DNA of 64,000 bases, from contig NZ_BAAAXG010000026.1 of assembly GCF_039535475.1 (NCBI RefSeq), positions 1,674,001-1,738,000 on the forward strand. The letters are read 5' to 3'. The notes beneath the pieces were generated by a model that saw nothing but the letters and a program-made list of their open reading frames with translations, was not told the origin of the DNA and did not search any database. Positions 11,816 to 54,556 of the stretch are shown here, piece after piece. Numbering within the stretch: the first letter of the stretch is position 1; each line of letters opens with the position of its first letter. The DNA is from Streptomyces showdoensis (lineage in GTDB: Bacteria > Actinomycetota > Actinomycetes > Streptomycetales > Streptomycetaceae). The translations under genes were made by a program, and so were the position numbers.

Positions 11816-11846
11816 TTGCGGGATACGGGGGGTGACCCGGTACTCT
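11816..11846 (+). promoter_or_regulatory. Likely promoter of tRNA-Ala
   Basis: TTGCGG (11816-11821), a 19-bp spacer and TACTCT (11841-11846) lie 11 bp before the tRNA. The spacing is longer than ideal. Confidence 0.4.
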
Positions 11847-11857
11847 GTTGTCGTTCC

Positions 11858-11930: not shown

Positions 11931-12070
11931 CTCCGGAAGTTCATCGAGAGACCCCTTCCGACCTGCGCGTACGTGGGTCGGGAGGGGTTTTCTCGTAGGC
12001 CCTCGAGGGCGGGTGAGTGGCCCACTTCGAGAGCGGGCGAATGGACCGGGACCCCTGGGCCACCGGGCCC

Positions 12071-12083
12071 TAACGTCGTGTCC
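12071..12083 (+). promoter_or_regulatory. Leaderless-type promoter of the MFS gene
   Basis: TAACGT (12071-12076) lies seven bases before the ATG at 12084 and no ribosome-binding site is present, which fits transcription starting at the start codon. Confidence 0.5.
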
Positions 12084-13364
12084 ATGCCGAACACCGGGAC
12101 GAAGCCCACGCCCTCCGCCCGAACCCACCGGGCGCTGCTCCTCGCCCAGCTCGCCAACGCGGTCGGCGACGGCGCCTTCTACGTGACCTCGGCCCTCTAC
12201 TTCTCCCTGGTCGTCGGGCTCTCCGCCGCGCAGATCGGCGCCGGGCTCGCCCTCGCCTGGGGCATCGGCTCGGTCGCCGGGGTGCCCCTCGGCCACCTCG
12301 CCGACCGGCGCGGGCCGCGCGGCACCTCGGTGTGGCTCGCCCTGGCGACCTCGGGGGCCGTCGCCTCCTTCCTGCTCATCCGCTCCTTCCTGCCCTTCCT
12401 GCTCGCCGCCGCGGTGTACGCCACCGCCCAGAGCGGGCTCGCCGCCGCCCGCCAGGCCCTGCTCGCGGGGCTGGTCGAGCCGGCCGCCCGGGTGGGGATG
12501 CTGGCCAGGGTGCAGGCCACGCTGAACGCGGGGCTCGCGGTCGGCGCCGCGCTCGGCGGCCTCGCCCTGCACGCCGGCACGCGCGGCGCGTACCTCGCCG
12601 TCCTCGCGCTCGACGCGCTGGGCTTCCTCGTCTGCGCCCTGGTGCTGCGCGCGCTCCCGCCGGTGCCGGGCACGGGGGCCGCGGCCGGCGGCCCGGCCCG
12701 GCTGGTGGTGCTGCGGGACCGCCCGTACGCCCTGCTCACGCTCCTGAACGCGCTGCTGCTGCTCCGGCTGCCGCTGCTCAGCCTGGCGCTGCCGTTGTGG
12801 ATCGTGGAGCGCACCACGGCGCCCGGCTGGACGGTGTCGGCGCTCTTCGTCCTCAACACGGGCGCGGTCATGCTCTTCCAGGTGCGGGCCGCGCGCTCGG
12901 TGACGGGGCCGGCCGAGGCCACCCGGGCGGTGGGGCGCTCCGGCCTGGTGATGCTCGCCTCGTGCGCGGTGTTCGCGGTGACGGCGGTGGGCCTCGGGCC
13001 CGGCCCGACGGTCGCGGTGCTCGTGCTGGGCGCCGTTCTCCAGGTGGTCGCGGAGATGCGCCACTCGGCGGGGTCGTGGCAGATCGGGCTGGGACTCGCG
13101 CCGGCCGACCGGATCGGCCAGTACCAGGGCTTCTACGGCACCGGCGTGCCCGTCGCCAGGACCCTCGGGCCGCTGCTCGTCACCACGCTGCTGATCGGCT
13201 GGGGAGCGGCCGGCTGGCTGGTCCTGGGCGGGATCTTCCTGGTGGCGGGCCTGGCGACGGGGCCGGCGGTGCGCTGGGCGGAGCGCGTGCGGGCGGCGGA
13301 CGCGGTGCCGGGTGCGCTTGCGGGTGCGCTTCCGGGCGTGGGGGAGCCGGCCGGGGTCCGCTGA
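12084..13364 (+). CDS. Major facilitator superfamily transporter
   Basis: A 426-residue protein with about 12 predicted membrane segments and the MFS motif A loop GHLADRRGPRG between segments 2 and 3. The likely role is drug or metabolite efflux at the cytoplasmic membrane; substrate unknown. The ATG at 12084 was chosen because a -10-like TAACGT lies just upstream and no Shine-Dalgarno is seen; a GTG two codons earlier is possible. It stands alone after tRNA-Ala. Confidence 0.85.
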   Translation: MPNTGTKPTPSARTHRALLLAQLANAVGDGAFYVTSALYFSLVVGLSAAQIGAGLALAWGIGSVAGVPLGHLADRRGPRGTSVWLALATSGAVASFLLIRSFLPFLLAAAVYATAQSGLAAARQALLAGLVEPAARVGMLARVQATLNAGLAVGAALGGLALHAGTRGAYLAVLALDALGFLVCALVLRALPPVPGTGAAAGGPARLVVLRDRPYALLTLLNALLLLRLPLLSLALPLWIVERTTAPGWTVSALFVLNTGAVMLFQVRAARSVTGPAEATRAVGRSGLVMLASCAVFAVTAVGLGPGPTVAVLVLGAVLQVVAEMRHSAGSWQIGLGLAPADRIGQYQGFYGTGVPVARTLGPLLVTTLLIGWGAAGWLVLGGIFLVAGLATGPAVRWAERVRAADAVPGALAGALPGVGEPAGVR

Positions 13365-13527
13365 GCCGGACGGGTGGTGTTCATCGGAAGAACTGCGCGG
13401 ACGCGGCGTCGCTCCGGGGAATCGCGGCGCCCGTACACATCATGAGGAAGGTACGAAAAGCGCGCAATCCGAAATGAACCATCCGAGAAATCGGATACCG
13501 CCCACAACGTCACGAAAGTGAGGGGTC

Positions 13528-39490: not shown

Positions 39491-40579
39491 TCAGCGGTCG
39501 AAGTCGAGCTCCACCTCGGGGGTCGCCGGGTGGGACTGGCAGGCCAGGACGTATCCGGCGTCGGTCTCCTCGGGCTCCAGGGCGAAGTTGCGGTCCATCC
39601 GCACGTCGCCGGAGACGAGGAAGGCGCGGCAGGTGCCGCACACGCCGCCCTTGCAGGCGTACGGGGCGTCCGCCCGGGCGCGCAGCACGGTCTCCAGGAG
39701 CGTCTCGCCCTGCTGGACGGGCCAGTTGCCTGAGCGGCCGTGCAGGGTGGCGGTCAGGGTCGCGTGCGCGGGGGCGTCGGCCGAGGGGGCCGGGGCGGGG
39801 GCGGAGCCGTCGTCGACGTGGAAGATCTCCTGGTGGACGCGTGTCCGGTCGACGCCGAGCTCGCGCAGGGCCCGCTCGGCGCTCTGCACCAGGCCGAAGG
39901 GGCCGCACAGGAACCAGCCGTCGATGCCGTCGACGGGGAGCAGCGCGGGCAGCAGGGTGGTGAGCCGTTCGTGGTCGAGCCGGCCGGAGGGGAGTCCTGA
40001 CTGCTGTTCCTCGCGGGAGAGGACGGTGACCAGCTGGAAGCGGTCGGGGTGGCGGTCCTTGAGGTCGGCGACCTCGTCGAGGAACATCGTGGAGGCCGCG
40101 GTGCGGTCGCTGCGCACGAGGCAGAAGGTGGCGTCGGGCTGCCGGGCGAGCAGGGTGGCGGCCATCGACAGGACCGGGGTGATGCCGCTGCCGCCGACGA
40201 CGGCCGCGAAGTGTCCGGGCCGGGGGGCGAGGACGAAGCGGCCCATGGGTTCCATGACCTCGACGGTGTCGCCGACGGCGAGTTCCTTGAGGGCGTAGGT
40301 GGAGAACTCGCCGCCGTCGACGAGGCGGATGCCGACGCGGAGGACGGGCGTCTCGCCTTCGGGGGCTGCGGGGGCGCAGATGGAGTAGGTGCGGCGGATC
40401 TCTTCGCCGTGGGCTCCGGTGCGGCGCAGGGCGAGGTGCTGGCCGGGGGTGTGGCGGTAGGTCTCGCGCAGCTCGGGCGGGACGGCGAAGGTGACGGCCA
40501 CCGAGTCGTCCGTGAGCTGCTCGACCTCGCTGACCCGGAGCGGGTGGAATCCGGCCCGTCCGGTCTTTGAGGACTGCAT
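39491..40579 (-). CDS. paaE: Phenylacetyl-CoA epoxidase reductase subunit PaaE
   Basis: Delivers electrons from NADPH to the PaaABC epoxidase. The 362-residue protein has an FAD domain (RRTYSICAP), an NADP-binding domain (VVGGSGITPVLSMAATLL; CGPFGLVQSA) and a C-terminal plant-type 2Fe-2S ferredoxin (CKGGVCGTCRAFLVSG .. LACQSHP). Its ATG directly follows the paaD stop (TAGATG), the end of the paaABCDE operon. Confidence 0.93.
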   Translation of the reverse strand: MQSSKTGRAGFHPLRVSEVEQLTDDSVAVTFAVPPELRETYRHTPGQHLALRRTGAHGEEIRRTYSICAPAAPEGETPVLRVGIRLVDGGEFSTYALKELAVGDTVEVMEPMGRFVLAPRPGHFAAVVGGSGITPVLSMAATLLARQPDATFCLVRSDRTAASTMFLDEVADLKDRHPDRFQLVTVLSREEQQSGLPSGRLDHERLTTLLPALLPVDGIDGWFLCGPFGLVQSAERALRELGVDRTRVHQEIFHVDDGSAPAPAPSADAPAHATLTATLHGRSGNWPVQQGETLLETVLRARADAPYACKGGVCGTCRAFLVSGDVRMDRNFALEPEETDAGYVLACQSHPATPEVELDFDR

Positions 40580-41826: not shown

Positions 41827-42110
41827 AGGTGCTTCACCCCGTCCGGGATCTCGTAGAAGGTGGGGTGGCGGTAGGGCTTGTCCGCCGAGGGCTCGAAGAA
41901 GGGGTCCTTCTCGTCGGGGGAGGAGGCGGTGATCTCGGTGGAGGGGACGACCCAGATCGACACGCCTTCGTTGCGGCGGGTGTAGAGGTCGCGGGCGTTG
42001 CGCAGGGCCATCTCGGCGTCCGGTGCGTGGAGGCTGCCGGCGTGGGTGTGGGACAGTCCGCGGCGCGAGCGCACGAACACCTCCCACAGCGGCCATCCGT
42101 CGGTGGTCAT
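41823..42110 (-). CDS. paaB: Phenylacetyl-CoA epoxidase subunit PaaB
   Basis: A 95-residue protein, [46 protein letters not shown], full length for the family. PaaB holds PaaAC dimers together. The ATG at 42110 overlaps the paaA stop (ATGA); the longer open frame upstream is the paaA region in another frame. Confidence 0.93.
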
Positions 42111-43114
42111 GCCCGTGCCTCCCCGTCCGTGTGCTGCTTCGCAGTGTGCTTCTCCGCGTAGGCCGCGGCGGCTTCCCTGACCCAGGCGCCGTCCTCGTGT
42201 GCCTGGCGGCGCTTGGTGAGGCGCTGCTCGTTGCAGGGGCCGTTGCCCTTGAGGACGTCCCAGAACTCGGCCCAGTCGATGGGGCCGAAGTCGTAGTGCC
42301 CGCGCTCCTCGTTCCACTTCAGGTCGGGGTCGGGGAGGGTGAGGCCGAGGGATTCGGCCTGCGGGGCGGCGATGTCGACGAAGCGCTGGCGCAGTTCGTC
42401 GTTGGAGTGGCGCTTGATCTTCCAGGCCATGGCCTGGGCGGAGTGGGTCGACTCGTCGTCCGGCGGGCCGAACATCATCAGGGAGGGCCACCACCAGCGG
42501 TCGACCGCGTCCTGGGCCATGGCGTGCTGGGCCTCGGTGCCGCGGGAGAGGGCGAGGAGGGCCTCGTACCCCTGGCGCTGGTGGAAGGACTCCTCCTTGC
42601 AGACCCGGACCATGGCGCGTGCGTACGGTCCGTAGGAGCAGCGGCAGAGGGGGACCTGGTTGGTGATGGCGGCGCCGTCCACGAGCCAGCCGATGGCGCC
42701 GACGTCGGCCCAGGTCAGCGTGGGGTAGTTGAAGATCGACGAGTACTTCTGGCGGCCGGAGTGGAGCTTGTCGAGGAGCTCGTCGCGGCTGGTGCCGAGC
42801 GTCTCGGCGGCGCTGTAGAGGTAGAGGCCGTGGCCGGCCTCGTCCTGGACCTTGGCCATGAGGATGGCCTTGCGCCGGAGGGAGGGGGCGCGGGTGATCC
42901 AGTTCGCCTCGGGCTGCATGCCGATGATCTCGGAGTGGGCGTGCTGGGCGATCTGGCGGACCAGGCCGGCGCGGTAGGCGTCGGGCATCCAGTCGCGGGG
43001 CTCGATGCGCTCGTCGGCGGCGACGGCGGCGTCGAACACCGCTTCGAGGGCGGCCTGTGTCGCCGTCTCTGCCGTCACCGGTGTCGCTGTCGTCTCTGCC
43101 GTGCCTGCGGTCAT
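42107..43114 (-). CDS. paaA: Phenylacetyl-CoA epoxidase catalytic subunit PaaA
   Basis: The di-iron oxygenase subunit that epoxidises the ring of phenylacetyl-CoA; 335 residues. Ferritin-like iron ligands are seen in [17 protein letters not shown] and [15 protein letters not shown]. The N-terminal 25 residues are Thr/Ala-rich and variable. It is the first gene of paaABCDE; the shared paa operator lies 11 bp upstream of its ATG. No paaK, paaG, paaJ or paaI is in the window, so other pathway steps are encoded elsewhere. Confidence 0.94.
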
Positions 43115-43124: not shown

Positions 43125-43142
43125 ACCGACCGATCGTTCGGT
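43125..43142. promoter_or_regulatory. TetR-type operator upstream of paaA (site 1)
   Basis: Reads ACCGAACGATCGGTCGGT on the minus strand, an 18-bp palindrome with one mismatched pair. Sites 2 (47748) and 3 (50876) share it. Likely bound by the TetR protein encoded at 49385. Confidence 0.75.
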
Positions 43143-43226
43143 TGAATGACTTCAATGGTCGTTCGGCGGCCCGTATGGTGTCAACCTCTGTGGATAACTG
43201 CTTGGGCCGATCGGGAGCGGGGCGCG

Positions 43227-44069
43227 ATGGACTCGGACGACGACAGGGGCGTGCGCGAGGACGCCACCGAGACCGCAGCCCAGGACGAGCCCGCGCCCCC
43301 GGACGAGCCGGCGGGGCCGGACGAGCCGGCGGGGCCGGACGCCCCGGAGCGCCACGACGGGTCCGTGCCGCCGGCCCGGCGGTCCGGGGCCGGGATCGCC
43401 GGGCTGTCGCTGCCGTACCAGGTCGTCGCCGCCGTCGCGCTCGCCGTCCTGGGCGTCTTCGCCTGCGTCCACGTCGCGATGGTGTTCCTGCACGTCGCCC
43501 CGTCGAACACGCTGACCAAGCAGCACGGCGAGGCCGTCGACGACTGGATCTACCCCGAGTTCGAGCAGAACTGGAAGCTCTTCGCCCCCAACCCGCTCCA
43601 GCAGAACATCGCCGTCCAGGTGCGCGCCCAGGTGGCCGGTGACGGCGGGCGCAGGACCACCGGCTGGATCGACCTCTCCGCCCAGGACGCCGCGGACATC
43701 CGAGGCAGCCTGCTGCCGAGCCACACCGAGCAGAACGAGCTGCGCCGGGCCTGGGACTTCTACCTGAACTCCCACACCGACGACCACCGCCCCAACGGGC
43801 TGCGCGGAGAGCTCTCCGAGAGCTACATGCGGCGGATCGTGATGCTGCGCCTCGACGAGCGGGATCTCGGCGGCACGGTCGAGCGGATCCAGCTGCGCTC
43901 CGTGACCACGCCCGTCCCTCCGCCCCCGTGGAGCGGCGAGAAGACCGGCGCGCAGCCGGCCTTCCGCAGCTACCCGTGGTGGCGGATCACCGATGCCGAC
44001 CGGCCCGCCGGGGCCGCGGACGCCGAGGCCCGGGGCCTCGCGCCGAACCGTACGGAGGCCGGCCGATGA
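43227..44069 (+). CDS. DUF5819 family membrane protein
   Basis: A 280-residue protein with an acidic, Pro/Glu-rich N-terminus (EPAGPDEPAGPDAPE repeats), one membrane helix (about 62-88, VVAAVALAVLGVFACVHVAMVFLHV), and an extracytoplasmic domain with WIYPEFEQNWKLFAPNPLQQN, the DUF5819 hallmark. Function unknown; it is paired with HTTM genes in many actinobacteria. The ATG at 43227 was chosen; a DnaA box (TTATCCACA, minus, 43189-43197) lies 30 bp upstream. Its stop overlaps the HTTM start (ATGA). Confidence 0.82.
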   Translation: MDSDDDRGVREDATETAAQDEPAPPDEPAGPDEPAGPDAPERHDGSVPPARRSGAGIAGLSLPYQVVAAVALAVLGVFACVHVAMVFLHVAPSNTLTKQHGEAVDDWIYPEFEQNWKLFAPNPLQQNIAVQVRAQVAGDGGRRTTGWIDLSAQDAADIRGSLLPSHTEQNELRRAWDFYLNSHTDDHRPNGLRGELSESYMRRIVMLRLDERDLGGTVERIQLRSVTTPVPPPPWSGEKTGAQPAFRSYPWWRITDADRPAGAADAEARGLAPNRTEAGR

Positions 44070-45292
44070 GCCGCACCCCCGCTGCCCCCGCGCAGCCCCG
44101 CGTCCCCTTCGACCGGCGGCTCGCCCGGGCCGTCCAGAAGGTCACGGCCGAGGCCCTCGGCCCGTACCAGACGGCGATCGTCCGGATCGGCTTCTCGCTC
44201 ACCTGGCTGCTGTTCCTGCTGCGCGAGTGGCCGCACCGGCTGGAGCTGTACGGGCCCGACGGCCCCTGGTCCTGGGAGATGGGCCGCCGGCTGATCGCCG
44301 ACAACCACGCCTTCACCGCCCTGATGTGGTCCGACGGGCGGCTCTGGTTCGAGCTCGTCTACGGGCTCGCGGTGCTCTCCTCCGTGCTGCTGCTGCTCGG
44401 CTGGCACACCCGGGCCGTGTCCGTGGTCTTCATGGCCGGCGTGCTGTCCCTGCAGAACCGGTCCATCTTCATGGGCGACGGCGGCGACAACGTCGTCCAC
44501 ATCATGGCGCTCTACCTCGTCCTCACCCGCTGCGGCCAGGTCTGGTCGCTCGACGCCCGGCGGGCGGCCCGGCGCGGGCGCAGCGGTGGCGGCGCGGAGC
44601 GCGGCCCGGACCGCGACCTGGTGGGACCGCTGCTGTGGACGGTCCTCGGCGGCCTCCTCCTCGCCGCCACCTGGTTCTCCGAGCTCACCGGCGAGTGGTG
44701 GCTCGTGGTGCTCATGTGGGTGCTGTGGCTGGGGCAGGGGCTGTGGTGGCTGGTGTGCCGGTACGCCGACGACGAGCCGCGCACCCTGCTCGACGTCATC
44801 GCCAACCTCACCCACAACGCCGCCCTCGTCGTGATCATGGTGGAGGTCTGTCTGATCTACGCCACGGCCGGCTGGTACAAGATCCAGGGTTCGCGCTGGC
44901 AGGACGGCACCGCGCTGTACTACCCGCTCAAGCTGGACTACTTCTCCCCCTGGCCGGCCCTCTCCGACCTGCTGGGGGCGAGCGGGGTGATGGTGCTGCT
45001 GCTGACCTACGGCACCGTGATCGTCCAGGTCGCCTTCCCCTTCACGCTCTTCAACCGCAAGGTCAAGAACGTCCTGCTCGCCGTGATGATGCTGGAGCAT
45101 GCGGGCATCGCCGTGCTGCTGGGGCTCCCCTTCTTCTCGCTCGCGATGATCTCCGCGGACGCGGTCTTCCTGCCGACGGCGTTCCTGCTGTGGCTGGGCG
45201 CGCGGGCGGCGCGGGGCCGGGACCGGCTGCTGCGGCGGAAGCCGCCGGTGGAAGCGGTGCCCGCGCCGCCTCCCCGTACCCTCGTCGGGTGA
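44066..45292 (+). CDS. HTTM-domain membrane protein (vitamin K carboxylase-like)
   Basis: A 408-residue polytopic protein with the HTTM domain: RIGFSLTWLLFLLREWPHRLELYGPDGPWSW, SLQNRSIFMGDGGDNVVHIMALYL and AGWYKIQGSRWQDGTALYYPL. The domain is shared with gamma-glutamyl carboxylases, but the bacterial role is open. It is translationally coupled to DUF5819 upstream (ATGA) and its stop overlaps the SpoU start (GTGA). This suggests that DUF5819 and HTTM form a membrane complex. Confidence 0.85.
   Translation: MSRTPAAPAQPRVPFDRRLARAVQKVTAEALGPYQTAIVRIGFSLTWLLFLLREWPHRLELYGPDGPWSWEMGRRLIADNHAFTALMWSDGRLWFELVYGLAVLSSVLLLLGWHTRAVSVVFMAGVLSLQNRSIFMGDGGDNVVHIMALYLVLTRCGQVWSLDARRAARRGRSGGGAERGPDRDLVGPLLWTVLGGLLLAATWFSELTGEWWLVVLMWVLWLGQGLWWLVCRYADDEPRTLLDVIANLTHNAALVVIMVEVCLIYATAGWYKIQGSRWQDGTALYYPLKLDYFSPWPALSDLLGASGVMVLLLTYGTVIVQVAFPFTLFNRKVKNVLLAVMMLEHAGIAVLLGLPFFSLAMISADAVFLPTAFLLWLGARAARGRDRLLRRKPPVEAVPAPPPRTLVG
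45277..45288 (+). promoter_or_regulatory. Leaderless-type internal promoter of the SpoU gene
   Basis: TACCCT (45277-45282) lies six bases before the GTG at 45289, inside the 3' end of the HTTM gene. Confidence 0.4.
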
Positions 45293-45948
45293 GCACCACC
45301 GAGGAACAGCAGAGCGAGCCGGTCCAGTACGACGAGGGCTTCGCCCCCGAGGTCGGCGTCGGGCCGCACCCGGAGCCCTGGCCGCGGGGCGAGCGCTACG
45401 ACCCCGAGCTGCTGGCCGGCGGCGACCGGCGCAACGTCGTCGACCGCTACCGCTACTGGACGCGGGAGGCGATCGTCGAGGACCTGGACACCCGCCGCCA
45501 CGACTTCCACGTGGCGGTGGAGAACTGGGGCCACGACTTCAACATCGGCTCGGTGGTGCGCACCGCGAACGCCTTCCTCGCCAAGGAGATCCACATCGTG
45601 GGGCGGCGGCGCTGGAACCGGCGCGGGGCCATGGTCACCGACCGCTACCAGCACGTGCGGCACCACCCGGACACCCGGTCGCTGACCGCCTGGGCGGCGG
45701 CCGAGAACCTGCCGATCATCGGCATCGACAACCTGCCGGGCTCGGTGCCGCTGGAGCGCACCGTGCTGCCGCGCCGCTGTGTGCTGCTCTTCGGGCAGGA
45801 GGGACCGGGGCTCACCGAGGAGGCCCGGGAGCACGCGGCGATGGTCTGCTCGATCGCCCAGTTCGGATCGACCCGGTCGATCAACGCGGGCGCGGCGGCC
45901 GCGGTCGCCATGCACGCCTGGGTGCAGCGGTACGCGGAGATCGACTGA
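45289..45948 (+). CDS. SpoU-family (TrmH) RNA 2'-O-methyltransferase
   Basis: A 219-residue SPOUT enzyme that methylates a ribose in tRNA or rRNA. The three motifs are clear: NIGSVVRTANAF (motif 1), LLFGQEGPGLTEE (motif 2) and SINAGAAAAVAMHAW (motif 3). The first 60 residues are a charged extension. The exact target is unknown. GTG at 45289 overlaps the HTTM stop. A terminator follows. Confidence 0.88.
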   Translation: MSTTEEQQSEPVQYDEGFAPEVGVGPHPEPWPRGERYDPELLAGGDRRNVVDRYRYWTREAIVEDLDTRRHDFHVAVENWGHDFNIGSVVRTANAFLAKEIHIVGRRRWNRRGAMVTDRYQHVRHHPDTRSLTAWAAAENLPIIGIDNLPGSVPLERTVLPRRCVLLFGQEGPGLTEEAREHAAMVCSIAQFGSTRSINAGAAAAVAMHAWVQRYAEID

Positions 45949-45954
45949 CGGGGC

Positions 45955-45981
45955 GGGGCGGGGGATCCGGTCCCCCGCCCC
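45955..45981. terminator. Bidirectional terminator between SpoU gene and paaN
   Basis: GGGGCGGGGGA (45955-45965) pairs with TCCCCCGCCCC (45971-45981), loop of five. Confidence 0.75.
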
Positions 45982-45997
45982 GGCCCGGCGGGCGGGG

Positions 45998-47695
45998 TCA
46001 GGCCTGGCGGCGGACCTCCACCACGCGGAAGCGGTTGGAGACGAAGGCGCCGTCGCACAGCGCCGCGTTCGCCGCCGGGTTGCCGCCCGAGCCGTGGAAG
46101 TCGGAGAACGCGGCCGTCTGGTTCACGTAGACCCCGCCCGTCAGGTTCAGCGAGAGCTGCGCCGACTCCTCCAGGCAGACCTCCTCCACGGCCCGCTCGG
46201 TCTCGGCCGAGGTCGTGTACGCGCCGACCGTCATCGCACCCTTCTCGCGGACCGTGCGCCGCAGCAGCTCCAGGGCGTCGGCGGTCGAGTCGACCGAGAC
46301 GGCGAAGGAGACCGGGCCGAAGCACTCGGAGAGGTACGCCGCCTCCGCGTCCGGCTTGGAGCCGTCCAGCTTCACGATGACCGGTGTGCGGACGACGGCC
46401 TGCGGGAAGTCCGGGTTCGCCACCTCGCGGGAGGCCAGTGCCACCTCGCCCAGGCCGGCGGCGGCCTCCAGGCGCGCCTTCACGTCGGGGTTCACCAGGG
46501 CGCCCAGCAGCGCGTTCGCCCGGGCGTCGTCGCCGAGCAGGCCGCCGACCGCGCCCGCGAGGTCGGCGACGACCTCGTCGTACGACTTCGGGCCCTGGTC
46601 GGTGGTGATGCCCTCGCGGGGGATCAGCAGGTTCTGCGGGGTGGTGCACATCTGGCCGCTGTACAGGGACAGGGAGAAGGCCAGGTTGGAGAGCATGCCC
46701 TTGTAGTCGTCGGTGGAGTCGACGACGACCGTGTTGACGCCGGCCTTCTCCGTGTAGACCTGCGCCTGGCGGGCGTTGGCCTCCAGCCAGTCGCCGAAGG
46801 CGGTCGAGCCGGTGTAGTCGATGATCCGGATCTCGGGGCGGACGGCCAGCGTCTTGGCGATGCCCTCGCCGGGACGCTCGGCGGCGAGCGCCACCAGGTT
46901 CGGGTCGAAGCCGGCCTCGGCGAGGACCTCGCGGGCGACGCGGACCGTGAGGGCCAGCGGGAGGACCGCGCGGGGGTGCGGCTTGACCAGGACGGGGTTG
47001 CCGGTGGCCAGGGAGGCGAACAGGCCCGGGTAGCCGTTCCACGTCGGGAAGGTGTTGCAGCCGATCATCAGCGCGATGCCGCGGGCGACCGGGGTGAACT
47101 CCTTGGAGAGCTCCAGCGGCTCGCGCTTGCCCTGCGGCTTCGACCAGTCGGCGCGGCCGGCGGGGGTGCGGGTCTGCTCCGCGTACGCGTACGCCACCGC
47201 CTCCAGACCGCGGTCCTGGGCGTGCGGGCCGCCGGCCTGGAAGGCCATCATGAAGGCCTGGCCGCTCGTGTGCATGACGGCGTGCGCGAACTCGTGGGTG
47301 CGGGCGGAGATCCGGGCGAGGATCTCCAGGCAGACCAGGGCGCGGGTCTCGGGCCCGGCGTCGCGCCAGGCGCCCATGCCGGCGCGCATCGCGGGCAGCA
47401 GGACGTCGATGTCGGCGTGCGGGTACGTGACGCCGAGGGCCGGGCCGTACGGCGAGACCTCCGCGCCGGTCCAGTCGTCGGTGCCGGGCTGGTCGAGCTC
47501 GAAGCGGGTGTCCAGCAGGGCCTTGTAGGCGTCCAGACCGGCGGCCGCGTCCAGCGAGCCGCCCTCCCCGTACGCCTTGGGGTGCTCCGGGTACGGGGAC
47601 CAGTACGCGCGCGTGCGGATGGTGTCGAGGGCCTGATCGAGGGTGGACCGGTGCTTGTCGGCCAGACGGTCGGTGGTCAGCTGAGCGGCGGCCAT
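45998..47695 (-). CDS. paaN: Phenylacetic acid degradation protein PaaN
   Basis: An aldehyde-dehydrogenase-superfamily protein of 565 residues, assigned to the PaaN form used in actinobacterial phenylacetate degradation, where it likely oxidises the ring-opened semialdehyde. ALDH features: NTFPTWNGYPGLFASLATGNPVLVKPHP, IIDYTGSTAFGDWLE and the catalytic Cys in SLYSGQMCTTPQN. Unlike E. coli PaaZ it has no hydratase domain. GAGGAG lies before the ATG at 47695. It is divergent from paaH across operator site 2. Confidence 0.88.
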   Translation of the reverse strand: MAAAQLTTDRLADKHRSTLDQALDTIRTRAYWSPYPEHPKAYGEGGSLDAAAGLDAYKALLDTRFELDQPGTDDWTGAEVSPYGPALGVTYPHADIDVLLPAMRAGMGAWRDAGPETRALVCLEILARISARTHEFAHAVMHTSGQAFMMAFQAGGPHAQDRGLEAVAYAYAEQTRTPAGRADWSKPQGKREPLELSKEFTPVARGIALMIGCNTFPTWNGYPGLFASLATGNPVLVKPHPRAVLPLALTVRVAREVLAEAGFDPNLVALAAERPGEGIAKTLAVRPEIRIIDYTGSTAFGDWLEANARQAQVYTEKAGVNTVVVDSTDDYKGMLSNLAFSLSLYSGQMCTTPQNLLIPREGITTDQGPKSYDEVVADLAGAVGGLLGDDARANALLGALVNPDVKARLEAAAGLGEVALASREVANPDFPQAVVRTPVIVKLDGSKPDAEAAYLSECFGPVSFAVSVDSTADALELLRRTVREKGAMTVGAYTTSAETERAVEEVCLEESAQLSLNLTGGVYVNQTAAFSDFHGSGGNPAANAALCDGAFVSNRFRVVEVRRQA

Positions 47696-47747
47696 GGGCG
47701 CAACTCCTCAATGAGCTGGGCAGGGGCAGGCGTACGGAGTTAGAGTA

Positions 47748-47765
47748 ACCGAACGATCGGTCGGG
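47748..47765. promoter_or_regulatory. TetR-type operator between paaN and paaH (site 2)
   Basis: ACCGAACGATCGGTCGGG matches site 1 at 17 of 18 positions. It lies 52 bp from the paaN start and 51 bp from the paaH start, able to control both. Confidence 0.75.
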
Positions 47766-47816
47766 ACAAGGGGGTCCGTCGATCCTGTGGAAAACCCATC
47801 GGGGAGGATCACTCCT

Positions 47817-49388
47817 ATGACCGCCAACACGACCGTCCAGGGGAGCGACGCGGTGTCGGCCGACGGAGCCGGACCCATCGATCCGAGCCGTGCCGTCGCC
47901 GTCGTCGGTACGGGGACCATGGGCCAGGGCATCGCCCAGGTCGCCCTGCTCGCGGGCCATCCCGTCCGCCTCCACGACAGCGTCCCGGGCCGCGCCGAGG
48001 AGGCCGTGACCGCCGTCGCGGCCCGCCTTGACCGGCTCGTCGAGAAGGGCCGGCTCGACGCGGCGGAGCGGGACGCGGCCGTCGCCCGGCTGCACGCGGC
48101 GCCCGAGCTCTCCGCGCTGGCCGACGCCGCCCTGGTCGTCGAGGCGATCGTCGAGCGGCTGGAGGTCAAGCAGGGCCTCTTCGCCGAGCTGGAGGAGATC
48201 GTCGGCGCGGACACCCTGCTCGCCACCAACACCTCCTCGCTCTCCGTCACCGCCATCGCGGGCGGCCTGCGGCTGCCCGGGCGCTTCGTCGGCATGCACT
48301 TCTTCAACCCGGCCCCGCTGCTGCCGCTCGTCGAGATCGTCAGCGGCTTCGCCACCGAGCCGGCCGCCGCCACGCGCGCGTACGAGACCGCCAGGCACTG
48401 GGGCAAGACGCCGGTGCGCTGCGCCGACACCCCCGGCTTCATCGTCAACCGCATCGCCCGCCCCTTCTACGCGGAGGCGCTGCGCGTCTACGAGGAGGGC
48501 GCGGCCGACCCCGCCACGATCGACGCGGCGCTGCGCGAGTCCGGCGGCTTCCGGATGGGCCCCTTCGAGCTGACCGACCTCATCGGCCAGGACGTCAACG
48601 AGGCCGTGACCCGCTCCGTATGGGAGTCCTTCTTCCAGGACCCCAAGTTCACGCCGTCGCTCGCGCAGCGGCGCCTGGTCGAGTCGGGCCGGTTCGGCCG
48701 CAAGTCGGGGCAGGGCTGGTTCCCGTACGCGGAGGGCGCCGCGCGTCCCGAGCCGCACACGGCGGCCCCGGCGAAGGCGCCGGAGGCCGTCACGATCCAC
48801 GGCGACCTGGGGCCCGCGAAGGTGCTGGCGGAGCTCTTCGAGCAGGCCGGCGTGAAGGTCCGGCGCAAGCGCGGTGACGGGTACATCGCCCTGAGCGGCG
48901 GCGGCCGGCTCGGTCTCGCCGACGGGGAGACCTCGTTCGAGTACACGGACGAGGAGATCGTCTACTTCGACCTCGCCCTCGACTACGCCGCGGCGGGCAG
49001 GATCGTCCTGTCCACCGCCGCGCGCACCTCCCCGGAGACCCTGGAGGAGGCCGTCGGGCTCTTCCAGGCGCTCGGCAAGCAGGTCTCCGTGATCGGCGAC
49101 GTGCCGGGCATGATCGTCGCCCGTACGGTCGCCATGCTGGCCGACCTCGCCGCCGACGCGGTCGACCGGGGGGTCGCCTCCGCCGAGGACGTCGACACCG
49201 CGATGCGGCTCGGCGTCAACTACCCGGCCGGCCCCCTGGAGTGGGCGGCGAAGGTGGGCCACAGGCGCCTGGTGGAGCTGCTGGGCGAACTGCACGAGCG
49301 CTACCCCACCGGCCGCTACGCGCCCTCGCTCGGCCTCGTGCGGCGTGGATACGACGACGACGTCGCAGACGCGGAGGAGAGCCGATGA
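47817..49388 (+). CDS. paaH: 3-hydroxyacyl-CoA dehydrogenase, two-domain (PaaH-like)
   Basis: A 523-residue enzyme that oxidises 3-hydroxyadipyl-CoA or related 3-hydroxyacyl-CoA with NAD. N-terminal Rossmann domain with VAVVGTGTMGQGIAQVALLAGH, catalytic His in GMHFFNPAPLLPLVEIV, and HCDH C-terminal domain (DTPGFIVNRIARPFY). A second HCDH C-terminal domain follows (about 420-515, VIGDVPGMIVARTVAMLADLAADAVDRGVASAEDVD). GGGGAGG is upstream of ATG 47817. Its stop overlaps the TetR start. Confidence 0.88.
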   Translation: MTANTTVQGSDAVSADGAGPIDPSRAVAVVGTGTMGQGIAQVALLAGHPVRLHDSVPGRAEEAVTAVAARLDRLVEKGRLDAAERDAAVARLHAAPELSALADAALVVEAIVERLEVKQGLFAELEEIVGADTLLATNTSSLSVTAIAGGLRLPGRFVGMHFFNPAPLLPLVEIVSGFATEPAAATRAYETARHWGKTPVRCADTPGFIVNRIARPFYAEALRVYEEGAADPATIDAALRESGGFRMGPFELTDLIGQDVNEAVTRSVWESFFQDPKFTPSLAQRRLVESGRFGRKSGQGWFPYAEGAARPEPHTAAPAKAPEAVTIHGDLGPAKVLAELFEQAGVKVRRKRGDGYIALSGGGRLGLADGETSFEYTDEEIVYFDLALDYAAAGRIVLSTAARTSPETLEEAVGLFQALGKQVSVIGDVPGMIVARTVAMLADLAADAVDRGVASAEDVDTAMRLGVNYPAGPLEWAAKVGHRRLVELLGELHERYPTGRYAPSLGLVRRGYDDDVADAEESR

Positions 49389-49978
49389 CCACCGCCAGAC
49401 GGGACACGTACACCCCCGACACGCTGCTCTCGGTCGCCGTGCGGGTCTTCAACGAGCGCGGCTACGACGGCACCTCCATGGAGCACCTCTCCAAGGCGGC
49501 CGGGATCTCCAAGTCCTCGATCTACCACCACGTGGCGGGTAAGGAGGAGCTGCTGCGGCGTGCGGTCAGCCGGGCGCTCGACGGGCTCTTCGCGGTGCTC
49601 GACGAGCCGGGCGCGGGCCGTGGCCGGGCCGTGGAGCGGGTCGAGTACGTGACCCGGCGCACGGTGGAGGTGCTGATCGAGGAGCTCCCGTACGTGACGC
49701 TGCTGCTGCGGGTGCGGGGCAACACGAAGACCGAGCGGTGGGCGATGGAACGCCGCCGCGAGTTCGACCACCGGGTGGCCGAGCTGCTGAAGGCGGCGGC
49801 AGCCGACGGCGACCTGCGGGCCGACCTGGACATCCGGCTGGCGACCAGGCTGCTCTTCGGCATGATCAACTCGCTGGTCGAGTGGTACAAGCCGCACCCG
49901 GACTCCCCGTCGGAGCGGGAGCAGCTGGCGGAGACCGTCGTGCGCATGGCCTTCGGAGGGCTGCGCACCGCCCGCTGA
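49385..49978 (+). CDS. paaR: TetR-family regulator, probable PaaR
   Basis: A 197-residue regulator with a TetR HTH (TLLSVAVRVFNERGYDGTSMEHLSKAAGISKSSIYHHVAGKEELL) and a helical ligand domain. Encoded downstream of paaH with ATGA overlap, it is the best candidate to bind the 18-bp sites at paaA, paaN/paaH and perhaps bkdA; phenylacetyl-CoA would be the expected inducer by analogy with other PaaR proteins. That assignment is inferred from position. Confidence 0.8.
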   Translation: MTTARRDTYTPDTLLSVAVRVFNERGYDGTSMEHLSKAAGISKSSIYHHVAGKEELLRRAVSRALDGLFAVLDEPGAGRGRAVERVEYVTRRTVEVLIEELPYVTLLLRVRGNTKTERWAMERRREFDHRVAELLKAAAADGDLRADLDIRLATRLLFGMINSLVEWYKPHPDSPSEREQLAETVVRMAFGGLRTAR

Positions 49979-50041
49979 GGCGGTGCGCCCTCCACGGGAG
50001 GGCCGGGAGCAGGGCTTCAGGAGGCCGGGAAAGGCTTCAGG

Positions 50042-50090
50042 AGGGCCGGGAGGGGGTTCGGGGGTTCACCTCGGCCTCCCTCCCGGCCCT
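50042..50090. terminator. Terminator between convergent paaR and bkdR-like genes
   Basis: AGGGCCGGGAGGG (50042-50054) pairs perfectly with CCCTCCCGGCCCT (50078-50090) with a 23-nt loop. Confidence 0.6.
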
Positions 50091-50168
50091 TCGCGGTGTC
50101 CGGGCCGGCGGGGCGGGTGTCCGGGCCGCCGGCCCGGGGGACGGGCGGGGCGGGCGGGGCCGGGGGCC

Positions 50169-50774
50169 TCAGTCCCGCCGGTCCGGGTCCGGGTCGAGGT
50201 CCGTCTCCTCGAAGACCAGCAGGGTGCGCGTGGAGAGCACCTCCGGGATCGACTGGAGGCGGGTGAGCACCAGCTCCCGCAGGGTCCGGTTGTCCGGGGT
50301 GTGGACCAGCAGCAGGACGTCGAAGTCGCCGCTGACCAGCGCGATGTGCGCGGCCCCCGGGAGGGCCTGGAGCTGCTCGCGGACGGTGCGCCACGAGTTC
50401 TGGACGATCTTGAGCGTGATGTAGGCGGAGGCACCGTGCCCCGCCCGCTCGTGGTTGACGCGGGCGCTGAAGCCGCGGATCACCCCGTCGTCGATGAGCC
50501 GGTTGATCCGCGCGTACGCGTTGGCGCGGGAGACGTGGACCCGCTCGGCCACCGAACGCACCGAGGCGCGGCCGTCCGCCTGGAGCAGCCGCAGGATGTC
50601 CCGGTCGATCGCGTCCAGCGGGCGGGCCGGCGGCATCGGGGAGACGATGACAGGGCCCGGCGGGGATCCGGACGGGCCCGCCGGAGCGCCCGTCGAGGGG
50701 GCGGCGCCGGGGGGCGCGTTCAGGAGCTCGTCGATGGTGCGCTCCTCGACGTCGGCCATTTGTTCATCCGCCAT
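50169..50774 (-). CDS. bkdR: Lrp/AsnC-family regulator (BkdR-like)
   Basis: A 201-residue regulator. A Pro/Gly/Ser-rich N-terminal segment (about 15-50) is followed by the AsnC HTH (LDAIDRDILRLLQADGRASVRSVAERVHVSRANAYARINRLIDDGVIRGF) and the RAM ligand domain. It is divergent from bkdABC, as BkdR is in other bacteria, and probably responds to branched-chain amino acids. ATG at 50774 begins MADEQMADVE; another ATG five codons later is possible. The Pro/Gly insert looks variable. Confidence 0.85.
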   Translation of the reverse strand: MADEQMADVEERTIDELLNAPPGAAPSTGAPAGPSGSPPGPVIVSPMPPARPLDAIDRDILRLLQADGRASVRSVAERVHVSRANAYARINRLIDDGVIRGFSARVNHERAGHGASAYITLKIVQNSWRTVREQLQALPGAAHIALVSGDFDVLLLVHTPDNRTLRELVLTRLQSIPEVLSTRTLLVFEETDLDPDPDRRD

Positions 50775-50832
50775 GTCCCCCCGCCTCTCTCCAGTGGACG
50801 ACCTGCACCCATCCCAAGCTGTGGAGAACCGT

Positions 50833-50893
50833 TTGTCCACAGGCTGAAGGTGCCTGTAGCCAAAATGCCTCCACGACCGAACAATCGGTAGGT
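50833..50893. promoter_or_regulatory. bkdR-bkdA divergent control region: DnaA box and PaaR-like site 3
   Basis: A perfect TTGTCCACA box lies at 50833-50841. ACCGAACAATCGGTAGGT (50876-50893) matches the paa operator at 16 of 18 positions, differing at positions 8 and 15. It lies 69 bp before the bkdA start. Confidence 0.6.
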
Positions 50894-50961
50894 GAGGCGC
50901 GCCACATTTCGCGCCACCCGCCTTCGGGTCTTATGCCCGCTCCCACGAGGAGGTGGACTCG

Positions 50962-52116
50962 TTGCAACAGCGCAGTTCGACAGTCCAAGAGCCCCCCGGT
51001 GCCGCTCTCGCCTACCGGCCCACCCCGCCGCCGGCCTGGCAGCCGCGCACCGACCCCGCCCCGCTGCTGCCGGACGCCGAGCCGCTGCGCGTGCTCGGCA
51101 CCGACGCCGTGGCCGACGCCGACCCGGAGCTGCTGCGCCGCCTCTACGCGGAGCTCGTCCGCGGCCGCCGGTACAACGCGCAGGCGACCGCCCTCACCAA
51201 GCAGGGCCGCCTCGCCGTGTACCCCTCCACGACGGGCCAGGAGGCCTGCGAGGTGGCCGCGGCGCTGGCGCTGGAGGAGCGGGACTGGCTCTTCCCCTCG
51301 TACCGCGACACCCTCGCCGCCGTCGCCCGCGGGCTCGACCCCGTGCAGGCGCTGACCCTGCTGCGCGGCGACTGGCACACCGGCTACGACCCGCACGAGC
51401 ACCGCATAGCCCCGCTGTGCACCCCGCTCGCCACCCAGCTCCCCCACGCGGTGGGCCTCGCCCACGCCGCCCGGCTGAAGGGCGACGACGTGGTCGCGCT
51501 CGCCATGGTCGGCGACGGCGGCACCAGCGAGGGCGACTTCCACGAGGCGCTGAACTTCGCGGCCGTGTGGCAGGCCCCCGTGGTCTTCTTCGTGCAGAAC
51601 AACGGCTTCGCGATCTCCGTGCCGCTCGCCAAGCAGACCGCGGCCCCGTCCCTGGCCCACAAGGCCGTCGGCTACGGCATGCCGGGCCGGCTCGTCGACG
51701 GCAACGACGCCGTCGCCGTCCACCAGGTGCTGACCGAGGCCGTGACCCGCGCCCGGCGCGGCGGCGGGCCCACCCTCGTCGAGGCCGTCACCTACCGGAT
51801 CGACGCCCACACCAACGCCGACGACGCCACCCGCTACCGCGGCGACGGCGAGGTCGAGACCTGGCGCGCCCACGACCCGATCCTCCTGCTGGAGCGGGAG
51901 CTGACCGAGCGCGGACTCCTCGACGAGGACGGCCGGCGCGAGGCCGCCGAGGCCGCCGAGACGATGGCCGCGGCACTGCGCGAGCGGATGAACGCCGACC
52001 CCGTGCTCGACCCGATGGACCTGTTCGCCCACGTGTACGCCGAGCGGACCGCGCAGCTGCGCGAGCAGGCGGAGCAGCTGCGCGCGGAGCTCGACGCCGA
52101 GAGCGAGGCGGGATGA
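50962..52116 (+). CDS. bkdA: Branched-chain alpha-keto acid dehydrogenase E1 alpha subunit
   Basis: The thiamine-diphosphate-binding E1 alpha chain, 384 residues, which decarboxylates keto acids from Val, Leu and Ile and supplies branched acyl-CoA starters for fatty acids. TPP motif GDGGTSEGDFHEALNFAAVWQAPVVFFVQNN is clear, as is the phosphorylation-loop-like YRGDGEVE. TTG at 50962 was chosen because AGGAGG lies eight bases upstream; the GTG at 50953 overlaps that site. The stop overlaps bkdB (ATGA). Confidence 0.9.
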   Translation: MQQRSSTVQEPPGAALAYRPTPPPAWQPRTDPAPLLPDAEPLRVLGTDAVADADPELLRRLYAELVRGRRYNAQATALTKQGRLAVYPSTTGQEACEVAAALALEERDWLFPSYRDTLAAVARGLDPVQALTLLRGDWHTGYDPHEHRIAPLCTPLATQLPHAVGLAHAARLKGDDVVALAMVGDGGTSEGDFHEALNFAAVWQAPVVFFVQNNGFAISVPLAKQTAAPSLAHKAVGYGMPGRLVDGNDAVAVHQVLTEAVTRARRGGGPTLVEAVTYRIDAHTNADDATRYRGDGEVETWRAHDPILLLERELTERGLLDEDGRREAAEAAETMAAALRERMNADPVLDPMDLFAHVYAERTAQLREQAEQLRAELDAESEAG

Positions 52117-53144
52117 CCACCCACGCGACCGCGCGGCCGGCCGCCAAGGCGGCGGCCAAGCCCGCCACCATGGCGCAGGCCCTCCAGCGGGCCATGCGCG
52201 ACGCGATGGCCGAGGACCCCACCGTCCACGTGCTCGGCGAGGACGTCGGCACCCTCGGCGGCGTCTTCCGGGTCACCGACGGGCTCGCCAAGGAGTTCGG
52301 CGAGGACCGCTGCACCGACACGCCGCTGGCCGAGGCGGGCATCCTCGGCACCGCCGTCGGCATGGCCATGTACGGGCTGCGGCCGGTCGTGGAGATGCAG
52401 TTCGACGCGTTCGCCTACCCGGCGTTCGAGCAGCTCATCAGCCATGTCTCCCGGATGCGCAACCGCACCCGGGGCGCCATGCCGATGCCGATCGTCGTCC
52501 GCGTGCCGTACGGCGGCGGGATCGGCGGGGTCGAGCACCACAGCGACTCCTCCGAGGCCTACTACATGGCGACCCCCGGCCTCCACGTCGTCACCCCGGC
52601 GACCGTCGAGGACGCCTACGGGCTGCTGCGCGCCGCCATCGCCTCCGACGACCCGGTGGTCTTCCTGGAGCCCAAGCGGCTCTACTGGTCGAAGTCCGAC
52701 TGGTCCCCCGAGGCGCCCGCCGCCGTGGAGCCGATCGGCAAGGCCGTGGTGCGCCGCCGCGGCACCAGCGCCACCCTCATCACCTACGGCCCCTCCCTGC
52801 CGGTCTGCATGGAGGCCGCCGAGGCCGCCCAGGCCGAGGGCTGGGACCTGGAGGTCGTCGACCTGCGCTCGCTCGTCCCGTTCGACGACGAGACCGTCGC
52901 CGCCTCCGTGAAGCGCACCGGCCGCGCGGTCGTGGTCCACGAGTCCGCCGGCTTCGGCGGGCCGGGCGGCGAGATCGCCGCGCGGGTCACCGAGCGCTGC
53001 TTCCACCACCTGGAGGCGCCGGTGCTGCGCGTCGCGGGCTTCGACATCCCGTACCCGCCGCCGATGCTGGAGCGCCACCACCTGCCCGGCGTGGACCGGG
53101 TCCTGGACGCGGTCGCCCGGCTCCAGTGGGAGGCGGGGAGCTGA
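52113..53144 (+). CDS. bkdB: Branched-chain alpha-keto acid dehydrogenase E1 beta subunit
   Basis: A 343-residue transketolase-like chain that completes the E1 heterotetramer. Family segments: VLGEDVGTLGGVFRVTDGL, DTPLAEAGILGTAVGMAMYGLRPVVEMQF and LITYGPSLPVCMEAAE. The N-terminus is an Ala/Lys-rich extension. It is coupled to bkdA by ATGA and to bkdC by TGATG. Confidence 0.92.
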   Translation: MTTHATARPAAKAAAKPATMAQALQRAMRDAMAEDPTVHVLGEDVGTLGGVFRVTDGLAKEFGEDRCTDTPLAEAGILGTAVGMAMYGLRPVVEMQFDAFAYPAFEQLISHVSRMRNRTRGAMPMPIVVRVPYGGGIGGVEHHSDSSEAYYMATPGLHVVTPATVEDAYGLLRAAIASDDPVVFLEPKRLYWSKSDWSPEAPAAVEPIGKAVVRRRGTSATLITYGPSLPVCMEAAEAAQAEGWDLEVVDLRSLVPFDDETVAASVKRTGRAVVVHESAGFGGPGGEIAARVTERCFHHLEAPVLRVAGFDIPYPPPMLERHHLPGVDRVLDAVARLQWEAGS

Positions 53145-54556
53145 TGGCCCAGGTGCTCGAATTCAAGCTGCCCGACCTCGGCGAGGGACTCACCGAGGCC
53201 GAGATCGTCCGCTGGCTGGTGAACGTCGGCGACGTCGTCGCCATCGACCAGCCGGTCGTCGAGGTGGAGACGGCCAAGGCGATGGTGGAGGTGCCCTGCC
53301 CGTACGGGGGCGTGGTCACCGCCCGCTTCGGCGAGGAGGGCACGGAACTGCCGGTCGGCGCACCCCTCCTGACGGTCGCGGTCGGCGGAGCCGAGGGAGC
53401 CGTGGCCGAGCCGGCGGGAACGGCGGGCTCCACCTCAGCCTCCACCCCCACCTCTTCCTCAGTCTCCGCCTCCGCCTCCGCAGAGTCGGCTGTCTCGTCG
53501 GAGTACTCCGGCAACGTGCTCGTCGGCTACGGCACCGCCGGGCCCGCGGCACGGCGTCGCCGGGTCCGCCGGGAGACGCCCGTCGCCGTCTCCGCGGCGG
53601 CGCCCGCCGTCACGCCCGTCGCCGTGCCCGTCTCGGCACCCGTCGTCCCGCAGGGGCCCGTTCCCGTCATCTCGCCGCTGGTGCGCAAGCTGGCCCGCGA
53701 CGAGGGCCTCGACCTCCGCGAGATCCGCGGCTCCGGCCCCGACGGGCTCATCCTGCGCGCCGACGTCGAGACCGCCCTCGCCGTACGGGCCCGGCCCGCC
53801 CCGGCCCCCGTCCCCGCCTACGCGGCCGCCGCGGCCCCCGCGCCCGGCACCCCGGTCGCGGCCGGGGCGGGCGAGCGGATCCCGCTGCGCGGGGTGCGCG
53901 GCGCGGTGGCCGACAAGCTGTCCCGCAGCCGGACCGAGATCCCCGACGCGACCTGCTGGGTCGACGCCGACGCCACCGAGCTGATGGCCGCGCGCGCGGC
54001 CATGAACGCGGCGGGCGGGCCGAAGATATCCGTGCTCGCGCTGCTCGCCCGGATCTGCACCCACGCCCTGGCCCGCTTCCCGGAGCTCAACTCCACGGTG
54101 GACACGGCCGCACGCGAGATCGTCCGGCTGCCCTCCGTGCACCTGGGCTTCGCGGCCCAGACCGAACGCGGCCTGGTCGTCCCCGTGGTCAAGGAGGCCG
54201 GCGGGCGCACCGCCGAGTCGCTGACCGCCGAGTTCGCCCGGCTGACCGAGTCGGCCCGGCAGGGGACGCTCACCCCGGCGGACCTGACCGGCGGCACGTT
54301 CACCCTGAACAACTACGGGGTGTTCGGCGTCGACGGCTCCACGCCGATCATCAACCACCCCGAGGCGGCCATGCTCGGTGTGGGGCGGATCGTCCCCAAG
54401 CCGTGGGTGCACCAGGGCGAACTGGCGGTGCGTCAGGTGGTCCAGCTCTCGCTGACCTTCGACCACCGGGTCTGCGACGGCGGGACGGCCGGCGGCTTCC
54501 TCCGCTACGTCGCCGACTGCGTCGAGAATCCGGCGGTGCTGCTGCGCACGCTGTGA
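53144..54556 (+). CDS. bkdC: Dihydrolipoamide acyltransferase (E2) of the branched-chain keto acid dehydrogenase
   Basis: A 470-residue E2. Lipoyl domain (1-80) with lipoylated Lys45 (VETAKAMVEV), a Ser/Ala linker, an E1/E3-binding domain (about 172-208, ISPLVRKLARDEGLDLREIRGSGPDG), and the catalytic acyltransferase domain with His441 in FDHRVCDGG. Its ATG overlaps the bkdB stop by one base. No E3 gene is adjacent, as usual. A hairpin follows. Confidence 0.92.
   Translation: MAQVLEFKLPDLGEGLTEAEIVRWLVNVGDVVAIDQPVVEVETAKAMVEVPCPYGGVVTARFGEEGTELPVGAPLLTVAVGGAEGAVAEPAGTAGSTSASTPTSSSVSASASAESAVSSEYSGNVLVGYGTAGPAARRRRVRRETPVAVSAAAPAVTPVAVPVSAPVVPQGPVPVISPLVRKLARDEGLDLREIRGSGPDGLILRADVETALAVRARPAPAPVPAYAAAAAPAPGTPVAAGAGERIPLRGVRGAVADKLSRSRTEIPDATCWVDADATELMAARAAMNAAGGPKISVLALLARICTHALARFPELNSTVDTAAREIVRLPSVHLGFAAQTERGLVVPVVKEAGGRTAESLTAEFARLTESARQGTLTPADLTGGTFTLNNYGVFGVDGSTPIINHPEAAMLGVGRIVPKPWVHQGELAVRQVVQLSLTFDHRVCDGGTAGGFLRYVADCVENPAVLLRTL

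Follow-up and report, generated by a model that had tools for sequence, protein, structure and literature searches.

The stretch analysed here, 64,000 nucleotides of the Streptomyces showdoensis genome (contig NZ_BAAAXG010000026.1, positions 1,674,001 to 1,738,000; hereafter the window), holds genes for phenylacetate degradation (paa), a TetR-family regulator gene and a 2-oxo acid dehydrogenase operon (bkdABC). Three related palindromic sequences are found among them, upstream of paaABCDE, between paaN and paaH, and upstream of bkdA. Our results suggest that these are operators of the TetR protein, a probable PaaR, and that the paa and bkd promoters are wired to this one regulator. The sites and genes are as follows.

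43125..43142, minus strand: predicted PaaR operator site 1, ACCGAACGATCGGTCGGT, upstream of paaABCDE, 0 mismatches
47748..47765, no strand given: predicted PaaR operator site 2, in the gap separating the divergent paaN and paaH-paaR units, 17/18
50876..50893, plus strand: predicted PaaR-type operator site 3, ACCGAACAATCGGTAGGT, upstream of bkdABC, 16/18
49385..49978, plus strand: TetR-family regulator, SCO3833 orthologue, probable PaaR; TetR_N and TetR_C_24 domains, PDB 2iai at E 2.3e-89, start ATG at 49385
39491..40579, minus strand: paaE; TIGR02160 406 bits, just below the cut-off of 420.8
presumed between paaE and paaA: paaB, paaC and paaD; paaC was used as query, paaB and paaD are placed by position alone
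42107..43114, minus strand: paaA, 1,2-phenylacetyl-CoA epoxidase subunit; TIGR02156 523 bits, cut-off 280
45998..47695, minus strand: paaN, aldehyde dehydrogenase family; TIGR02288 952 bits, cut-off 579
47817..49388, plus strand: paaH-like 3-hydroxyacyl-CoA dehydrogenase; TIGR02279 630 bits, below the cut-off of 669, PRK08268 subfamily above cut-off
50169..50774, minus strand: Lrp/AsnC regulator at the bkdR position (SCO3832 in S. coelicolor; PMC8176718); AsnC helix-turn-helix and ligand domains
50953..52116, plus strand: bkdA, 2-oxo acid dehydrogenase E1 alpha; PF00676, TIGR03181 431 bits, cut-off 411
52113..53144, plus strand: bkdB, E1 beta; best NCBIfam models below their cut-offs
53144..54556, plus strand: bkdC, E2 acyltransferase; best NCBIfam models below their cut-offs

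The paaH-like gene lies 5' of paaR in the same direction, and the E1 alpha, E1 beta and E2 genes form one unit, as expected of a keto-acid dehydrogenase. An earlier note on this DNA had named these genes from the letters alone: its paaA, paaN and bkdA (E1 alpha) fit the hidden Markov model matches, with paaH and paaE falling just below their equivalog cut-offs. The coordinates and mismatch counts (0, 1 and 2) that it gave for sites 1, 2 and 3 were recovered by our search of the window, and the TetR gene that it placed between sites 2 and 3 is indeed located there.

Sites 1 and 2 form almost perfect palindromes (ACCGAMCGATCGKTCGGT), and site 3 deviates from that motif once in each half. Allowing up to three mismatches, the window contains five strand matches at three places, against 0.17 expected from shuffles, and none of 100 shuffles reached five. 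In the whole 8.5-Mb genome, sites 1-3 are the only places with at most two mismatches, and a reversed-pattern control gave none. A weight matrix trained without site 3 assigned 30.8 bits to site 1, 27.7 to site 2 and 23.4 to site 3. Over 2,144,808 positions from 120 Streptomyces loci, the scores that equal or exceed that of site 3 of the window belong to copies of site 3 (100) and to strings of the site 1/2 type (216, six of which are letter variants whose places were not checked singly). On the basis of the shuffles, the whole-genome search and the matrix scan, a chance origin of the sites was rejected. At the genome matches with three mismatches inspected by eye (L005, L006, L007, L200 and L201) no paa or bkd gene adjoined, nor at L199; four further three-mismatch rows, besides the second strand of site 2, were outside this look. 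L199 itself (C26:2236276-2236293 of the same genome) reads ACCGACCAAGCGGTAGGT, two mismatches from the site 3 form, and its flanks resemble by eye an aldehyde dehydrogenase and an amino acid permease.

The conservation of the three sites was followed in 151 Streptomyces loci, corresponding to 144 distinct tetR genes (some genomes are present twice). The sample includes the best 80 matches, for which reason many loci are close to the window, and 40 loci from less similar species added deliberately. Site 3 is found in all 144 readable lrp-bkdA regions (140 unique sequences), as ACCGAACAATCGGTAGGT in 118, with the ending ...TAGGG in 17 and ...TTGGT in nine, and the 40 less similar loci behave like the rest. 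Four genomes were unreadable at lrp-bkdA, owing to a contig end (L059, identical to L108), to bkdA lying past the end of the stretch with site 3 still in view (L110), to a masked stretch (L131, G010) and to a bkd operon located elsewhere (L152, genome G089). In G089, bkd lies ~15 kb away and the site is present there as well (read in L262). Site 2 was recovered in 133/133 loci with paaN in the stretch. Similarly, site 1, with at most one mismatch to the centre-free motif, precedes paaA in all 93 loci with paaA in the stretch, out of 120 examined (the other 27 lack a paaA match of ≥75%). A paaH match above 55% identity was not found in the stretch at 34 of 120 Streptomyces loci, and in L022-L024 tetR directly follows site 2.

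In the 140 unique sequences, site 3 appears as an invariant island, divided by variable bases from two almost invariant blocks, TTGTCCACAG and TGTAGCCAAAATG, that resemble a bkdA promoter:

50833..50862, plus strand: inferred bkdA promoter, TTGTCC (50833-50838), 18 bp, TAGCCA (50857-50862)

With respect to the inferred promoters, sites 1 and 3 would lie at ~+7 to +24, and site 2 appears to fill exactly the spacer (16 bp) between TTGTCC and TACTCT in a conserved putative promoter of paaN. The conservation of the surrounding blocks would also be expected if site 3 were a part of the bkdA promoter or leader without a regulator of its own, its palindrome being fortuitous. We consider this very improbable, as nothing in the 2.14 million positions scanned except site 3 and the site 1/2-type strings scores as high, the sites in other genera carry other letters, and a site also precedes lrp-bkdABC in the distant actinobacterium G483, described below.

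The sites are also found away from the regulator gene. In 29 of 150 Streptomyces genomes, including G037, the best paaA copy is a relative of 71-75%. Twenty further stretches were read, 19 of them with such a remote paaA (18 best copies and one second copy), and 18 of these 19 genes carry a site, ACCGAACGAATGGTCGGT in 16 and ACCGAACGAACGGTCGGT in two; for 15 of the 18, no PaaR-like gene is present in the stretch. In the genome of the window, the open frame of paaK (TIGR02155 714 bits, cut-off 646) is preceded at ~40 bp by a site, and a site with at most four mismatches was found in 26 of the 28 paaK loci of the 31 genomes searched, so that paaK is a further predicted PaaR target. Across its PaaR site, paaK has as neighbour a gene (L004, on contig C11 of the same genome, 1813-2934) that resembles a type III polyketide synthase by eye and gave no NCBIfam match at E 1e-40. 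The idea that the sites merely hitch-hike with synteny was rejected given their presence at remote paaA and at paaK, and also given G089, where bkd lies at a distance and has a site, and one genus that has the neighbourhood and no good site.

Outside Streptomyces, a palindrome precedes bkdA in 5/5 loci of three other genera of the order, with at most two mismatches to the centre-free motif and with different letters in four of them. In L202, the site has the Streptomyces letters except the last (ACCGAACAATCGGTAGGC); the others read ACCGACCGTCCGGTCGGT (L203, with 0 mismatches to the centre-free motif), ACCGACCGAAGGTTCGGT (L204 and L205) and ACCGAACCTTCGGTCGGG (L206). The paaN sites of L203-L205 are of a longer form, ACTAACCG...CGGTAGGA. 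In G483 (L254), the gene order is paaK, PaaR, ..., paaZ, site, lrp-bkdABC, and the PaaR-type site, with three mismatches, stops 8 bp short of the first lrp ATG. Note that this locus was read further upstream (to the lrp start) than the divergent lrp/bkdA loci, 1.5 kb upstream being scanned in all.

These changes of letters bear on the possibility that the protein binding site 3 is not PaaR but another TetR or BkdR, and that the likeness of site 3 to the paa sites reflects a taste shared by the family. In the 144 Streptomyces regions, site 3 has nearly fixed letters that differ from those of sites 1 and 2, and each genome encodes many TetR regulators, with 45 to 200 candidate places each in a first search. 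Nevertheless, in other genera the bkdA site changes letters and yet remains a PaaR-type palindrome, without mismatches to the centre-free motif in L203, the neighbouring TetR gene is that of the probable PaaR, and the separate conserved block TTGTCCACAG offers, as a guess, an alternative candidate for BkdR. AccR and PccD were rejected as binders, as the sites tabulated for them in the available part of a review are unlike site 3 (PMC10933834). A different binder is, therefore, improbable in our view.

Regarding the regulator, the protein has the TetR fold, with PF00440 (the TetR_N helix-turn-helix) and the C-terminal domain PF17932 above their cut-offs. None of its NCBIfam matches is a PaaR model or reaches its cut-off, and its structural match 2iai (SCO3833) is annotated merely as a putative regulator; the list of PDB matches also contains 3vpr, which we take to be PfmR. 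In Streptomyces, the stretches around tetR hold paaN in 133/151 and paaA in 93/120 cases. At the class level, a match at E ≤1e-48 exists in 81 of 296 genomes (28 of them Streptomyces), and paaA lies in the same stretch as the TetR relative in 26 of the 40 class-level loci read outside the order. Because of this paaA neighbourhood at the class level and of the form of the operators, palindromic ACCG...CGGT sequences at paa units, the protein is a probable actinobacterial PaaR. An orthologue at E ≤1e-20 is found in 147/150 Streptomyces genomes and was not found in the other three, G037, G121 and G001. G037 has no site and its bkd is a diverged copy inside a paa operon, while G121 is without a close bkdA and without paaA; as a loss test for the PaaR sites, these three genomes constitute weak evidence.

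PaaR repressors with such operators are already known, Streptomyces included. Those of Corynebacterium glutamicum, Burkholderia cenocepacia and Thermus thermophilus are described as TetR repressors of paa with phenylacetyl-CoA as effector (PMC9493321, in the part available). The window resembles them in having a TetR gene near the paa genes, ACCG...CGGT operators (ACCGACCGGTCGGTT in B. cenocepacia) and several paa units with one operator each, and it differs in that the set is extended to bkdABC, a 2-oxo acid dehydrogenase operon whose conserved site is asymmetric. In Streptomyces pristinaespiralis, PaaR (SSDG_03033) is a paa repressor tied to phenylacetyl-CoA supply, with the putative site AACGA-N4-TCGGT; by eye, site 1 fits it fully, site 2 is one base off and site 3 two. 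We liken the two regulators by genus and role, the orthologue of the window being nearly universal in Streptomyces, and bkd is not mentioned in the available part of that source (PMC10933834).

The closest parallel at the level of the sites is PfmR (TTHB023), a TetR regulator of phenylacetate and fatty acid metabolism in Thermus thermophilus whose sites lie over the transcription start (PMC7022988). Its selected consensus matches sites 1 and 2 at 16/16 positions and site 3 at 15/16, and the start-site placement would also be shared. In contrast, PfmR belongs to a different phylum, and the available text names no bkd operon among its targets (PMC7022988). A PfmR probe with a G to c change was bound ~100-fold more weakly, its dissociation constant (KD) rising from 2.1 to 205 nM (PMC7022988). 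Because a change at the matching position has this effect, the occupancy of site 3 in vivo is uncertain; site 3 is perhaps a conserved weak site, and an operon that needs a looser shut-off than paa would be well served by a weak site of fixed sequence. The control of Streptomyces bkd by BkdR (SCO3832) shares the promoter region by position, although BkdR is of the Lrp type rather than a TetR, and PaaR is not mentioned in the available portion of that paper (PMC8176718).

Together, these observations lead us to propose, with a probability of roughly 0.77, a single PaaR regulon composed of paaABCDE, paaN/paaH-paaR, paaK and bkdABC, which would be released by phenylacetyl-CoA and perhaps explained by phenylpyruvate oxidation. 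The TetR protein (49385-49978) would be the Streptomyces PaaR, a repressor released by phenylacetyl-CoA as are the PaaR of other bacteria. It is predicted to bind the 18-bp palindrome at paaABCDE, at the divergent paaN / paaH-paaR promoter and at the unlinked paaK, and would control its own gene because of the site at the divergent promoter. Site 3, just downstream of the bkdABC promoter and beside the Lrp-type BkdR, would be bound more weakly, PaaR presumably hindering there the RNA polymerase that leaves the promoter. When phenylacetyl-CoA rises, all units would be derepressed at once. Probably, bkdABC belongs to the set because it would act as the dehydrogenase turning phenylpyruvate (from phenylalanine) into phenylacetyl-CoA, thus forming a feed-forward loop.

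The substrate of BkdABC is left unsettled by its sequence. The nearest solved E1 alpha chains to BkdA are those of pyruvate and 2-oxo acid dehydrogenases, followed by branched-chain ones, and the model that it matches, TIGR03181, carries the name pyruvate dehydrogenase. Its gene associations in other genomes point to phenylpyruvate. In G037 (L171, ~5320-13527, minus strand), genes for E1 alpha, E1 beta, E2, a crotonase and paaA, B, C, D and E are consecutive in an apparent single operon, and this E1 alpha is 61% identical to BkdA and 40% to the E1 alpha of a second bkd-type cluster in the genome of the window. A MerR-type gene lies near the G037 operon. In G149 (L197, L318), a paaK-like gene (just below cut-off) and a second PaaR-like TetR gene occur in one region with E1 alpha (69% identical to BkdA), E1 beta and E2. 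An exporter and an oxygenase-like gene are also present there, and our guess is that the region is a biosynthetic cluster using phenylacetyl-CoA. In pristinamycin biosynthesis, the pyruvate-dehydrogenase-like PglB/PglC are proposed to convert phenylpyruvate to phenylacetyl-CoA (PMC7089894), the same step as suggested for BkdABC; nevertheless, they belong to a biosynthetic gene cluster and were likened by their description alone, in the part of the source available (PMC7089894). From the gene associations of G037 and G149 and this enzyme step, which are not proof, phenylpyruvate is the likeliest common substrate, and a phenylpyruvate activity of BkdABC has somewhat less than an even chance. We put forward more tentatively, as a rather doubtful extension, that the BkdR-linked bkdABC complex of Streptomyces, although classed as a branched-chain dehydrogenase, is to a considerable extent a phenylpyruvate dehydrogenase leading from phenylalanine to phenylacetyl-CoA, drawn into a PaaR feed-forward loop through a low-affinity operator kept nearly letter for letter throughout the genus.

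Alternatively, PaaR control of bkdABC could reflect a broad cross-talk with the catabolism of branched-chain amino acids, either because acyl-CoA pools are shared or because PaaR also senses branched acyl-CoA, with BkdABC as a true branched-chain enzyme. The operon lies beside BkdR, described as the controller of a branched-chain dehydrogenase complex (PMC8176718, in part), a possible effect on leucine, isoleucine and valine degradation is mentioned for the Thermus PfmR (PMC7022988, in part), and a partial control would agree with the weaker and fixed form that site 3 has. However, only one of the two bkd-type clusters found in the genome, that of the window, has a PaaR-type site, and E1 alpha genes of the BkdA lineage occur with paa genes in G037, and with paaK-like and second PaaR-like genes in G149. 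This cross-talk is thus unlikely, and the junction of bkdABC-like genes and paaABCDE in one apparent operon of G037 makes branched-chain oxidation as such an improbable reason for the link. The earlier note had proposed that a single regulator joins phenylacetate degradation with branched-chain keto-acid oxidation. Its first half is retained here, since the conservation of the sites strongly supports one regulator predicted to be wired to the paa and bkd promoters. Its second half appears doubtful because the substrate is unsettled, a single bkd cluster has the site, and BkdA-lineage E1 alpha genes stand beside paa-type genes elsewhere.

Several observations weigh against the proposed regulon or its phenylpyruvate rationale. 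A branched-chain activity of a Streptomyces bkdABC E1 was reportedly described long ago. Site 3 is off-palindrome in both halves, with G to A at the position that matches the weakened PfmR probe, and the PfmR consensus at one mismatch also matches three unrelated places of the window (1.31 expected), which makes it a weak test for this site. In G001, a 79% complete assembly, the paaK site is still present and no PaaR was found. The paaA gene of G483 has no site with ≤3 mismatches (the best has five). When bkdA was sought in 44 PaaR-bearing genomes, 25 gave a match at E 1e-85, with 26 loci, and no upstream site with ≤3 mismatches was found at 24 of these; only G089, a Streptomyces, and G483 have one. 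Six of the 24 siteless loci come from a single genus within the same order, in which 7-15 kb separate bkd from PaaR; among the five read, four have a decayed palindrome such as GCCGAACAAAGAATCGGC and one a broken one. Finally, expression agrees with the regulon in that a Streptomyces grown on feather medium raised paaK/paaABCDE/paaI/paaJ together with bkdABC (PMC7181669, in part), but such a protein-rich medium could raise both pathways anyway. In S. albus, the complex named BCDH II is the main one for valine (PMC8176718, in part); it was matched to neither of the two clusters considered here. Because 24/26 of the other bkdA loci are siteless, the predicted PaaR-bkd link is to be seen as an old trait of Streptomyces and some of its neighbours, not of all actinobacteria.

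The link was not found by our searches of open-licence papers, few of which were opened, although the regulon reconstruction of Chen 2012 and RegPrecise could already list it; PaaR regulons were reportedly rebuilt in many species in that work. Its possible significance lies in the products of both pathways, as bkd complexes supply starter units for polyketides and for branched fatty acids, and phenylglycine antibiotics have phenylacetyl-CoA as a precursor. Should PaaR set both, two precursor pools of antibiotic producers could be steered through one repressor, and the testable question of the real substrate of BkdABC would be raised. The genus-wide asymmetric operator would also be a clear example of a site that is conserved and perhaps weak.

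A further repeated element was observed in the window. The 10-mer TTNTCCACAG has ten copies (0.10 expected), located at 43188-43197, 47785-47794, 50819-50828 and 50833-50842, and also at 2297, 16524, 16672, 16715, 35296 and 35310. At least one copy lies beside every predicted PaaR operator of the window and is conserved there partly to fully. It resembles what we take to be a DnaA box, and BkdR, DnaA or another protein may bind it.

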